NCBI GenBank assembly: GCA_004017535.1
Contig: SAJS01000022.1
Location: 1-64,000 of the forward strand
Length of the DNA: 64,000 nt
DNA from: Mesorhizobium sp.
Lineage (GTDB): Bacteria > Pseudomonadota > Alphaproteobacteria > Rhizobiales > Rhizobiaceae
Direction of reading: 5' to 3'
Part shown: positions 51,563 through 55,409 of the stretch, piece after piece
How the letters are laid out: the number at the start of each line of letters is the position of its first letter
How positions within the stretch are numbered: the first letter of the stretch is position 1
The notes under the pieces: model-generated
Databases searched by the model: none
Told to the model about the DNA's origin: nothing
The model's input: the letters and a program-made list of their open reading frames with translations, nothing else
Program-made: the position numbers and the translations under genes

Positions 51563-52870
51563 CTAGTCGATCACGCCGTAAAGGCGCGCGCGGAACGCCG
51601 CCTTGTCCTTCAAATATGTGGTTTTCAGAACGTCCACAACATGGCTTCGCCAGGCGTCGCTGTAGCTCTCATAGTCCTTGTAGAAGCCGGGCTTGTTGAA
51701 GACGTAGCGCGAGACGAAGTCCTGCGGCACGAAATCTGAGATCAACTGGTTGGTCAGCCAGGCATCGGGGTGTTCGGGCTTGGCGCGCACGACCAGGAAG
51801 CGCTGGCGCGGCGGCACGTCCTCGATTTTGAGATGGCCGAGTTGGGCGATCTCGCGCTTGGCGGCGTTGAGGAAGGGAAAGTTCCCGTCCCGGGCGATCA
51901 GGTCGGCATTGCCGTGGATCCAGGTCTGCAGCCAGACCTTGTCGACATCGGTCAAATTGCGGTTGGGCTCGGCGTCGCGGATCAGCGCGCCCACGACCAT
52001 CTCGGCGCGATGCTCGAGATAGCCGGAGGCCTCGATCCACGAGGCGCGCGGCAGGTCGAGGCGGCCGGTGGCGGCGAGGAAGCGGAACACCTTGTCGGCA
52101 TCGTTGATCGACAGGTAGCTGACCTGCCAGGGGCGTGAGCGGCGGAAGCCGGGAGCGGCTGGATCGCAGATCACCGTCGTCATATCGGGGTCGACGAAGA
52201 CATAGAGGCCGCCGAAATGGCTGGTCCAGTAGGCATTGTGGCGGAAGATCACCTGGTCGGGGACCAGCGCGTTCTCGCGGATGTCGCCGCAGATTTTGGC
52301 CAGATCGACCATGCGCTGCAGCATGGCGTTGTCGCGCCAGGCGTCCGGCTCCTGTTTCAGCCGGTCGACCAGCTTGCCGAGCTCGGCCGCCTTGCCCAGC
52401 ACGTCCTCGGCCGACAGTACCTTGAACTCGACCTGGTTGATTGACAGCAGGTCCTCGATGTCGTTGACCTTGGGGACCGAGTCCTCGATCTCGCCGTAGA
52501 TCACGTCCTTGATGGTCAGCGCGTCGATGGCGCGCTGGTTCTTCGACATGAACTCGAACATCAGCTGCGAGGTGTTGGAGAAGGCGGTGTGCACCACCGG
52601 CAGGTCGATCTGCGACGGCGTCAGGATGATGAAGCGGCGGTTGACCTCGTTGGGATCGAGATAGTCGAAATCGCCGCACTCCTCGGCGATTTCGGGCGAA
52701 AAGCCGGTGCGGTCGATCTGGAAGCTCTTCAACTTGGTCGGCTCGAGGCCGAAGGCGACAAGCGCCTTGTTGTAGCGCTGGATGAGATACGGCTCGTCGA
52801 CGGTGAGCAGCCTGCCGTAGATCAGCTCGTTGTCGCGCAGAAGATCGGGTTTCTTGGCGGGGCGGGTCAT
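51563..52870 (-). CDS. Conserved protein of unknown function, fourth gene of operon
   Basis: A 435-residue soluble protein, acidic and without signal peptide or membrane segment. The start MTRPAKKPDLLRDNELIYGR is followed by mixed alpha/beta sequence with no motif I recognise; I recall a similar rhizobial family annotated as DUF6638, unverified. Segments such as RRFIILTPSQIDLPVVHTAF and GGLYVFVDPDMTTVI look like a conserved core. It lies 105 bases before the DUF2333-like gene and just downstream of the DUF559 cassette. Confidence 0.6.
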   Translation of the reverse strand: MTRPAKKPDLLRDNELIYGRLLTVDEPYLIQRYNKALVAFGLEPTKLKSFQIDRTGFSPEIAEECGDFDYLDPNEVNRRFIILTPSQIDLPVVHTAFSNTSQLMFEFMSKNQRAIDALTIKDVIYGEIEDSVPKVNDIEDLLSINQVEFKVLSAEDVLGKAAELGKLVDRLKQEPDAWRDNAMLQRMVDLAKICGDIRENALVPDQVIFRHNAYWTSHFGGLYVFVDPDMTTVICDPAAPGFRRSRPWQVSYLSINDADKVFRFLAATGRLDLPRASWIEASGYLEHRAEMVVGALIRDAEPNRNLTDVDKVWLQTWIHGNADLIARDGNFPFLNAAKREIAQLGHLKIEDVPPRQRFLVVRAKPEHPDAWLTNQLISDFVPQDFVSRYVFNKPGFYKDYESYSDAWRSHVVDVLKTTYLKDKAAFRARLYGVID

Positions 52871-52920
52871 TGGCTGGGGTCCGACAAATGTCGCCTCGAA
52901 AGGTGAAGCGGCGACGCTGA

Positions 52921-53450
52921 CGCCCCCCTCTCCCCGTCCTTCACGGGGAGAGGGTAAGGGTGAGGGGCGGCGCCAGCGTTCAAAGATTTGTCTCCCCGTA
53001 GCCGCCGGCGGCAGTAAACCGAAGCTCGTGCGTTTCGATTAGACGATCGAGACGGCATTCGATTGCAGCAAGTATGGTTTCGAGCACCTCATCCCGATCT
53101 TTCAAGATAGCGACATTCCAGAAGCGGAGGACGGACCAATTGTTTGAGACCATGAAGCGATCTCTAGTCCTGTCGTAATTATTGCCTGCATGCTGGCTGC
53201 CGTCGACCTCAACAACGAGGCGGCACTCCCTGCAGGCAAAATCGGCGAAATAATTTCCTATCGGAAACTGCCGCACAAATTTATGACCGTTCAATCGTCT
53301 GCCGCGCAGTTCCATCCAAAGCGCTGTTTCCGCGTCGTTATCCGACTGCCGAAGGCGTCTTGCTCGTTTCGTTGTCGCGACTTCTGGTCCACGCACGGCG
53401 CTGCCCCTCACCCTTACCCTCTCCCCGTGAAGGACGGGGAGAGGGGGGCG
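52921..53450. mobile_element. DUF559 cassette framed by 54-bp inverted repeats
   Basis: A 530-base unit: repeat, gene, repeat. The inverted copies at 52921-52974 and 53397-53450 agree at 53 of 54 bases and each contains its own hairpin (CTCTCCCCGT/ACGGGGAGAG). The gene between uses 52980-53396, leaving five bases on one side and none on the other. It sits in an otherwise 98-base gap between two operon genes and looks A/T-richer than its surroundings. It may be a non-autonomous mobile unit. No transposase and no clear target duplication is visible. Confidence 0.6.
52980..53396 (-). CDS. DUF559 (Vsr-like) endonuclease-domain protein
   Basis: A 138-residue protein from a GTG start directly beside the repeat. 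The domain runs from RLRQSDNDAETALWMELRGR to the C-terminal third. The core FADFACRECRLVVEVDGSQH fits the DUF559 signature, related to very-short-patch repair endonucleases with Asp and Glu-x-Asp as metal-site candidates. A role as a nuclease in DNA repair or in mobility of the cassette is inference. Starts further upstream would run through the repeat. Confidence 0.8.
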   Translation of the reverse strand: MRGPEVATTKRARRLRQSDNDAETALWMELRGRRLNGHKFVRQFPIGNYFADFACRECRLVVEVDGSQHAGNNYDRTRDRFMVSNNWSVLRFWNVAILKDRDEVLETILAAIECRLDRLIETHELRFTAAGGYGETNL

Positions 53451-53498
53451 CCGACGTTGGCACCACATCCTTCCGTACTCGCCGGCAGCGAAGGAAGC

Positions 53499-55409
53499 CT
53501 ACGCATTCCACGCCCCCTTCTTCTTCAATTCCTCCATCTCGCGCGCCGCGCGCTCACGCAGCCTTGCGTCGCGCAGGAGCTTCTCCACCGCGGCATCATC
53601 CGACTTGTCGGAATAGCGGAACTCGGAATCGGCGTAGCGGTTGATCTCCTGCATGACCATGTCCATCGAGAACGGCCCGCGCAGTTCCTCGATCATCGCC
53701 TTCTTGTCGTCGTAGCTCTTGTGCATGAAGGCTTCGGGCTTCTCGAACCACTCGTCCGGCAGCTCGATATCCATGGCGCGCATCTTGATCGCGTCGGTGA
53801 CGTTTTTGATGGCGCGGCCGGTGAAGCGTGGTTCTGCGTCCTTGATCATGTGCAGGTAGGTGCCGATATCGGCCATGGTCTTAGGCGCGCCATTCTCCTT
53901 CATGTAGCGCTCATAGACCTTCATCAGCCCGTCTTCCTGCGGCTTCTCGTGTGCTTCATAGGCTTCGGCCACGGCGCGCTGGATCTCCTGCGCGGCATAG
54001 AGCTCATGCTCGCCCAGCGGGATCTTGTGGTTCTTGCCGGCGAGCAGCACGAAGATGTCGATATAGTCGTCGCGGGTCTGCGGGCCGTCGACCAGCCAGC
54101 GCGCGCCGGCGCGCTGGCGCAGCGCGTCGTCGACATTTTCCGGATAGTTGGAGAACATGCCGAAAGAGCAGTTGCCGCGCACCACCGTCGAGGCGCCGGC
54201 GAAGGCGTCCATCAGCACGCCGGTGATCTCCTGCTGACCGGCGGAAGCGCGGTCGTCGGAGCGGCGCGCCGCAACCTGGTCGATATCGTCGATGGTGCCG
54301 AAGCCGATGACGCGCGGATTGAGCACGTTGTTGATGAATTGCCGGCAGTTCTGGCCGGACTTGCCCTGATAGGACGAAATCTGGTCGACGCCGAAATTCT
54401 CATAGGCGAACGGATAGCCGGCCACCTGGCAATAGCCGTTGACGAGGCCGGCGATCATCTGGATCAGTGTCGTCTTGCCGGTGCCTGGCGCGCCGTCGCC
54501 GATGAAGGTGAACAGGAAGCCGCCAAGCTCGACGAACGGGTTCAGCTCGCGCTCGAAATCGTAGGCCATCAGCATCTTGGCCAACCTGACTGACTGGAAT
54601 TTGGCGATGTGGTTGCCGACAACCTCTTCCGGCTTCTTGAAGGTCATCACCAGCGGCTTGGAGCGCTTGCCGGGCGCGACGTCGAAGCCGTCGAGGGTGA
54701 AATCGTCGACATCGATGCGGATATGCGTGTTCTCGAACGGGCCGATGCCGTCGAAGCGGCCCTTTCGCGCCAAGAGCCCGTCGATGGCGACACGGGCGAA
54801 GGCGCGAGCACGCGTCATCAGGTCCGCATCGTCCTTCGAGCCGGTAATCGCCTTGTCGAGACCGGCCACGATCGATTTCACCGCGTCCTGTGGCGTGTCG
54901 AACAGGAAGTCGGGCTCGGCGATGTCGTTCGGCGCCTCGCCGTCGCTGTCGATCAGCTGGAACAGATAGGAGGCAAAACTGAAAGCGGAGACGTAAGCCG
55001 ACGCCGACAGAAGCTTCTTGAAGCTCGACGCCTCGTCGCCTTCCAGCGGCGCACGGGCATTCTTCGCCTGCAGGCTTTCGAGATCGGAGCCTTCGGCGAA
55101 GACACCCGCTATGGCGAGCGCGATCGCGAGGCCACGGCGGGCGCGGTAGAGCAGCGTGTGCTGCGGGATGCTCATCAACTGGTCGTCGGGGTGGATCGCG
55201 GCGACCGTCTTTGTGAGCTCGACCTCGCGCGTGCGGCGCACCGAGCCGACCGAAACGGTCGAGACGAAGCGGCGGTTGGTGCCGGCGAGCGGCGTGCCGG
55301 ATTCGCGCGACGGGTCCTCCAGCACGACGATGCGGGTGATGAAGCTCTGCGCCGAGGCACGGTGCTTCTCGATTGCGGCTTCCGAGATCGTGGTCAGGCC
55401 GGTGTCCAT
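53499..55409 (-). CDS. AAA+ family ATPase, operon core
   Basis: A 636-residue protein. The first 300 residues are helical and without known motifs. Walker A is GDGAPGTGKTT at 304-314, Walker B is GFGTIDDIDQ at 368-377; a sensor-like region (NCSFGMFSNYP, then ALRQRAGARWLVDGPQTRDD with arginines) follows. This is a clear AAA+ ATP-driven remodelling protein. Neighbours are all unknown, so the client is unknown. The 24-base gap to the upstream gene supports co-transcription. The C-terminus ends in charged helices. Confidence 0.85.
   Translation of the reverse strand: MDTGLTTISEAAIEKHRASAQSFITRIVVLEDPSRESGTPLAGTNRRFVSTVSVGSVRRTREVELTKTVAAIHPDDQLMSIPQHTLLYRARRGLAIALAIAGVFAEGSDLESLQAKNARAPLEGDEASSFKKLLSASAYVSAFSFASYLFQLIDSDGEAPNDIAEPDFLFDTPQDAVKSIVAGLDKAITGSKDDADLMTRARAFARVAIDGLLARKGRFDGIGPFENTHIRIDVDDFTLDGFDVAPGKRSKPLVMTFKKPEEVVGNHIAKFQSVRLAKMLMAYDFERELNPFVELGGFLFTFIGDGAPGTGKTTLIQMIAGLVNGYCQVAGYPFAYENFGVDQISSYQGKSGQNCRQFINNVLNPRVIGFGTIDDIDQVAARRSDDRASAGQQEITGVLMDAFAGASTVVRGNCSFGMFSNYPENVDDALRQRAGARWLVDGPQTRDDYIDIFVLLAGKNHKIPLGEHELYAAQEIQRAVAEAYEAHEKPQEDGLMKVYERYMKENGAPKTMADIGTYLHMIKDAEPRFTGRAIKNVTDAIKMRAMDIELPDEWFEKPEAFMHKSYDDKKAMIEELRGPFSMDMVMQEINRYADSEFRYSDKSDDAAVEKLLRDARLRERAAREMEELKKKGAWNA

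Follow-up and report, generated by a model that had tools for sequence, protein, structure and literature searches.

The closest described systems to the element reported here are the REPIN/RAYT systems, in which, according to PMC3116915 and PMC3733652, palindromic repeats stand beside an enzyme gene, gene-less inverted doublets are dispersed, and enzyme and repeats apparently co-evolve. All three features have counterparts in the cassettes built around genes of the DUF559 family: palindromic repeats lie beside the enzyme gene, the repeats that we call type T form dispersed gene-less inverted doublets, and an apparent co-evolution is also seen for DUF559 and its REPs. However, the REPIN/RAYT enzyme is a Y1 (HUH) transposase, to which the DUF559 nuclease is unrelated, and REPIN hairpins carry a GTAG tag at their foot, whereas the repeat of our locus (type A) is without GTAG. 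Thus, the cassette resembles a REPIN/RAYT system in the way it works without belonging to that class. The pair of a MITE and its autonomous insertion sequence provides a further comparison, in that the gene-carrying and gene-less forms of type T likewise share ends and orientation; unlike an insertion sequence, the framed unit has no transposase gene, and no target duplication was recognised, in flanks too diverged to exclude one.

On the side of the enzyme, the catalytic domain of the homing endonuclease I-Bth0305I has a fold like that predicted for the DUF559 nuclease (TM-score 0.75 by target length, from fold prediction). The target on which I-Bth0305I dimerises measures nearly 60 bp (PMC3943268), which approximates the length of one repeat here. 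That enzyme is intron-encoded and multi-domain, whereas the protein of our locus is a small single-domain one between inverted repeats, known from its sequence. Caulobacter VsrA contains a DUF559 domain, as stated in PMC12907096, but in contrast to Vsr and VsrA the nuclease studied here is framed by matched repeats and is variable at its site. On the side of the repeats, the CGTC-tagged REPs are alphaproteobacterial palindromic repeats that are said, in PMC3733652, to lack a dedicated transposase. Stems of CGTC REPs almost always begin with complementary AT pairs (PMC3733652), but the type A stem begins CCC; given this CC start, we do not assign type A to the CGTC family. In searches of open-licence papers, no link of DUF559 to inverted repeats or REPs was found.

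In the window, by which we mean the whole 64,000-nt stretch of Mesorhizobium DNA that was analysed, a DUF559 (PF04480) nuclease gene with a GTG start (52980-53396, minus strand, 138 codons plus stop) lies between two REP-like repeats of type A. The left copy (52921-52974, plus strand) consists of an outer hairpin and then a G-rich tail toward the gene, and the right one (53397-53450, minus strand) is its inverted copy as determined by sequence alignment. In the alignment of the spacer, 53/54 positions of these 54-bp inverted repeats were identical, and each copy contains a hairpin (52926-52954 and 53417-53445) with a 12-bp perfect stem and a 5-base loop, in agreement with the coordinates, the match and the hairpins given in the original prediction. 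As single-stranded DNA, the 29-mer 52926-52954 has a predicted folding energy of -14.5 kcal/mol (z -6.0). Imperfect outward extensions on the left (52898-52920, plus strand) and right (53451-53473, minus strand) lengthen the arms to 77 nt with 86% identity (52898-52974 versus 53397-53473), and a GCGCCAACGCTGACG-like stretch outside the hairpin was found again in many type A cassettes. The GTG start (53396-53394) abuts the right repeat, and five bases separate the left repeat from the end of the stop codon at 52980. An in-frame ATG is located upstream of the GTG, at 53468, and the longer open reading frame 52980-53468, used as query, matched the DUF559 family of Pfam with E 7.9e-36; the relatives at loci L045, L057 and L181 have ATG in place of the GTG of the window gene.

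The nuclease gene is the only gene between the repeats, and no transposase gene is found inside the unit. It resides inside an apparent operon, between a DUF6638 gene (51563-52870, minus strand) and an AAA ATPase gene (53499-55409, minus strand), both of which belong to the host site and lie outside the element. The spacer between these two genes is 628 bp and the block is 530 bp, so 98 bp would remain without the block, as had been estimated. The genome of the window has four DUF559 matches, and type A repeats with at most three mismatches are represented in it by the two framing copies only. Another of its DUF559 genes, L009, has an unusually long inverted repeat of about 150 bp; by eye, a characteristic stretch of this repeat recurs in a unit of genome G128 that lies at an unrelated place (L419, at the second site described below). 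A search of Rfam gave two matches, both under their gathering score; PADLOC has no family for the nuclease, and its matches in NCBIfam were all under the curated cut-off.

The predicted structure of the nuclease (pLDDT 83.6) had as its top structural match 3hrl (E 8.3e-7), which is an endonuclease-like protein from Neisseria gonorrhoeae and was also the sole sequence match in the PDB. The second was I-Bth0305I (PDB 3r3p; E 2.2e-3 for the match with the TM-score given above, and a further match with E 8.6e-3), followed by weaker matches to mitochondrial ribosomal proteins and to E. coli Vsr (1vsr, E 0.35). As modelled, the fold of the DUF559 nuclease is of the Vsr/EDxHD homing-endonuclease type. 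E23, D52, E63, D65 and H69 of the window protein are among the 17 invariant columns in an alignment of 20 sequences, and we regard them as candidate catalytic residues. Two types of nuclease are encountered at the DUF6638/AAA site, as described below, with median dN/dS values of 0.088 (19 genes) and 0.099 (28 genes), calculated after exclusion of 24 and 87 saturated pairs and with dS close to saturation; both types look conserved at the protein level.

To describe how general the framing of DUF559 genes is, a framing score was defined as the best inverted match between the 300 bp upstream and the 300 bp downstream of a DUF559 domain, and domains with a score of at least 40 were called framed. 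The window block scored 103. A score of at least 40 was found for 119 of 160 unique DUF559 domains with enough flank, a biased set in which many loci were chosen from the site of the window. As controls for this set, 0/1213 sliding positions in the window reached 40 (top score 35), and neither did any of 287 positions offset by 900 bp. These two controls replaced an earlier one, in which the upstream flank of one locus was compared with the downstream flank of another; it gave scores of at least 50 in 104/500 random genus pairs and was discarded, as we attribute its failure to orthologous loci in opposite orientation.

A less biased Mesorhizobium sample was composed of 33 best-family-match loci and 40 others, approximately every second one, drawn among the matches listed, so that it represents the stronger DUF559 matches. 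Among the matches listed, 46/74 domains of this genus sample were framed, with 46/48 framed outside a cysS-linked locus, in 15 contexts, and 0/26 in the cysS-linked context. This context comprises loci grouped by shared flank DNA, and cysteinyl-tRNA synthetase (cysS) is encoded at the two of its loci that were checked, L010 and L025. The DUF559 gene linked to cysS looks like a fixed copy, usable as an internal control. Being without framing repeats at L010, L025 and 24 further genus loci, it is possibly a copy adopted by the host.

Beyond the genus, 17/29 DUF559 domains at class level were framed and 12/29 were unframed, taking best matches first. In five class-level loci (L155, L156, L168, L169 and L175) the DUF559 frames extend into the repeat and end in similar C-terminal peptides, e.g. 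PNPLP. In named records, where loci were found by one conserved peptide and the best 80 were taken, 45/73 loci with enough flank were framed after L258 had been left out as an artefact of masked N, and the corresponding control with a 900-bp offset gave 0/149 positions; the unframed loci, 28/74 of these best 80, are counted against the explanation that we favour. The survey of framed genes in named records included Sinorhizobium, Bradyrhizobium, Sphingopyxis, Caulobacter, Variovorax, Thiobacillus and Luteimonas. Hence, the association of such repeats with DUF559 genes, on which the original prediction depended, recurs in the genus, at class level and in named records. A common repeat plan was recognised by eye at many loci, in which a CTCCC...GGGAG hairpin, often accompanied by another hairpin, is combined with a gene-facing tail, e.g. 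GGTGAGGG or GGATGAGGGG.

The correspondence between nuclease and repeat was measured on clustered nucleases, each combination of cluster and genomic context being represented by one framed member. Protein distance and repeat similarity were correlated with r -0.519 over 35 representatives and, when matching was restricted to the genus, with r -0.794 over 18 representatives; in both cases 0/5000 permutations were as extreme. Nucleases of similar sequence are accompanied by similar repeats, even when their genomic sites differ. In genome G020 (L181), a type A nuclease with type A repeats (39/42) is located between genes for an ABC-transporter domain and a lipoyl-ligase-like domain, which from their position we take to be lolD and lipB. 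In genome G060 (L182), a type A nuclease with a broken reading frame is found on a 5.6-kb contig with repeats matching at 48/50, and no DUF6638/AAA flank was found within the 3 kb examined. The occurrence of type A at these two places therefore indicates that the repeat pair travels with the gene.

The DUF6638/AAA site could be read in 107 of 146 genus genomes, with G040 (L331), G115 and G090 left out. Type A was present in 22 of the 107 genomes and a distant A-like form (60% protein identity) in 2, while 29 had type C, a different nuclease (about 53-66% identity where alignable) with a different repeat, with an insertion sequence breaking up one of these 29. At 40/107 sites there were repeats but no intact nuclease cassette, and the site was empty, with a spacer of 0-21 bp, in 14/107. 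The block, which had been supposed to be mobile, is thus variable among relatives. On a tree of the flanks, the site states need 56 changes, compared with 47-62 (mean 54.9) in 100 shuffles, and type A alone needs 21, compared with 18-24; the states fit this tree, in which 40/104 inner branches are unsupported, no better than shuffled labels. On a better-supported tree (21 genomes, ~16 kb around the site), the states take 10 changes and type A takes 6, as raw counts without shuffles, and the two closest relatives of the window, G097 and G107, carry repeats only and an interrupted type C. Transposase genes were noticed within the REP region of this site in two genomes, of DDE_Tnp_1 in G107 (L079, 1045-2280) and of IS110 type in G138 (L327, 506-1474); REPs as targets of insertion sequences are described for Sinorhizobium meliloti in PMC1525189.

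Alleles of mixed composition were found in G012, G022 and G117, where the left flank of type A, with its hairpin or repeat, is joined to type T content, and the joints are at or in a repeat. Moreover, 7/107 sites have a single hairpin in a spacer of 30-45 bp, and this hairpin could be a target or a remnant. The simplest reading is that breakage or recombination at the repeats is behind the turnover at the site, a reading that does not name the enzyme, and ordinary recombination may explain part of it. Among insertion differences in regions of at most 20 kb in 21 genomes, the REP-bearing ones were at the DUF6638/AAA site only, and two further gaps were not REP-like; a pattern scan gave nine REP groups, all at this site, using a pattern that does not recognise type A hairpins. 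A second site is empty in G126 (L413) and has different repeat families in other genomes, with no clear target duplication, and at a third site (L350) 11/16 rows were too diverged. The junctions, where the original prediction had looked to target duplications, revealed none that could be recognised among the species compared, which are too diverged to exclude one.

Gene-less repeats are most evident for type T, a repeat that accompanies a nuclease cluster of mostly 126-residue open frames and reaches up to 114 copies per genome. In three genomes with complete lists, 93 copies gave 36 neighbour pairs within 600 bp and 24 unpaired copies. Cassette orientation was observed in 33/36 pairs and another orientation in 3/36; 31/36 were 117-163 bp apart in cassette orientation, and 2/36, both in G032, were 552 bp apart and each enclosed a nuclease. 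All 20 short pairs examined were units of 142-164 bp with the same ends (20/20). The relation between gene-less and gene-carrying units of type T is that expected of a miniature and a gene-carrying element. Locus L015 (G032, contig C24, 431950-433343) contains two tandem type T nuclease cassettes, ~1.08 kb apart and each with its own repeats. The few dispersed copies of types A and C that were examined either stood alone or were paired the other way round, with tails outward (L195, L197 and L198).

Copy numbers were compared between genomes with and without the corresponding nuclease. Type T copies were commoner where the T nuclease was confirmed (18 genomes, median 44.5, versus 34 genomes, median 11.5; p 2e-6, with 9 genomes of inferred nuclease status set aside), and adding those 9 to the first group gave 27 genomes with median 41 (p 1.6e-7). 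Type A repeats were more numerous where nuclease A was present (26 genomes, median 8.5, versus 120 genomes, median 1.0; p 6.7e-13, and p 6.5e-9 with the framing pair subtracted), and nuclease C had no effect on their number (p 0.89). Type C repeats were commoner with nuclease C (28 genomes, median 4.5, versus 118 genomes, median 1.0; p 1.1e-9, and p 0.017 with the framing pair subtracted), and nuclease A had no effect on them (p 0.94). The statistics for types C and T ignore kinship. For type A, 11 independent tree pairs gave values of 2.6-3.4 in the same direction and 1.0-1.1 in the opposite one, with no significant p. Copy number as proof of mobilisation is thereby weakened, since the strong raw association of type A is non-significant on independent pairs. 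Genome G100, which has 19 dispersed type A repeats yet a type C cassette at the site, is likewise counted against our favoured explanation. The same applies to the genome of the window, whose type A copies at up to three mismatches are the framing pair and no others, to the unframed class-level domains (12/29), to the lack of a recognised target duplication, to the arrangement of the dispersed A and C copies, and to the weak structural matches with mitochondrial ribosomal proteins.

On the framing of the genes, the matching of nucleases and repeats, the turnover at the site, the other sites and the gene-less pairs, all of them observed, we base the interpretation that the block is, reasonably probably, a REPIN-like mobile element in its nuclease-carrying form, with a nuclease of Vsr/homing type as its enzyme in place of a RAYT. 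That nuclease and repeats together form a composite mobile unit is very likely; that the nuclease drives the movement is a proposition we hold to be evenly balanced. In such a mechanism, the nuclease would recognise its own REP and cut or nick there, and the break would be repaired from another REP-ended copy. Spread would result if repair placed a copy of the cassette, or of a pair lacking the gene, at the cut; exchange, if one REP-ended unit were replaced by a different one; and loss, if a REP pair were reduced to one hairpin. Allelic recombination between strains could also account for the turnover at the site. REP hairpins are known as hot spots for SbcCD-type hairpin cleavage, RecA-dependent events and replication slippage, and the main rival explanation is that host enzymes break these hairpins and allelic exchange drives the turnover, the nuclease being cargo or a repair enzyme. 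We consider this rather unlikely, but it accords with the mosaic alleles jointed at or in repeats, with the 7 single-hairpin alleles and with a nuclease-copy number link that is non-significant on independent pairs; moreover, PMC12907096 discusses VsrA, the DUF559 protein of Caulobacter, as an enzyme of mismatch repair. However, it leaves unexplained why DUF559 genes in particular are framed (46/48 in the genus, among the matches listed) and why related nucleases have related repeats at different sites.

Movement of the REPs in trans by a classical transposase or a RAYT, with DUF559 genes inside by chance or as cargo, is in our view very improbable, although RAYTs are proposed as movers of REPINs in other bacteria (PMC3116915) and the repeats of G107 and G138 contain insertion sequences. 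Our genome-wide transposase search, which covered the Y1_Tnp family (RAYT-type Y1 transposases), found matches in 7/61 genus genomes, and none in the genome of the window; of the six genomes with the most type T repeats, five were also without a match. Y1_Tnp is absent from 54/61 genomes, including that of the window, and a RAYT is therefore an unlikely mover. It is also conceivable that the repeats are immobile and insulate a small gene, their hairpins terminating transcription or stabilising the mRNA, for which the strong hairpin in each repeat and the position of the gene inside an apparent operon would speak. Near-identical arms, lineage-specific repeat sequences, gene-less dispersed copies and presence or absence at the site would be unexpected for such hairpins, and the cysS-linked DUF559 copies manage without repeats, so we give this explanation hardly any credence. 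The interpretation as a nuclease-carrying, REPIN-like element thus stays our preferred one. The original prediction of a minimal mobile cassette with REP-like or homing-like spread is supported as a whole, its REP-like organisation directly and its nuclease-driven mobility as a deduction.

More broadly, and tentatively, as we rate it slightly short of probable, these cassettes may form a class of selfish DNA in their own right, called 'REP-homing' elements, in which a stand-alone nuclease of Vsr/EDxHD type would cut its own REP palindrome and spread itself and gene-less REP pairs by break repair. Such nucleases would be the missing mobiliser of a large REP superfamily of the Alphaproteobacteria, probably present in some beta- and gammaproteobacteria as well, with a stem around CTCCC...GGGAG and a tail like GRTGAGGG as its features. 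Pfam still lists DUF559 as a family of unknown function, and CGTC REPs predominate in Alphaproteobacteria and seem to be without a dedicated transposase, according to a 2013 survey (PMC3733652). A REP-matched nuclease, if true, would provide a testable mover for REP families in RAYT-less genomes and would mean that a nuclease of repair type is able to serve a population of miniature repeats. The cysS-linked copies without repeats allow a mobile nuclease to be compared with one that is possibly host-adopted, and the DUF6638/AAA site, which within one genus holds cassette A, cassette C, repeats alone or nothing, offers a model for gain, loss and exchange.
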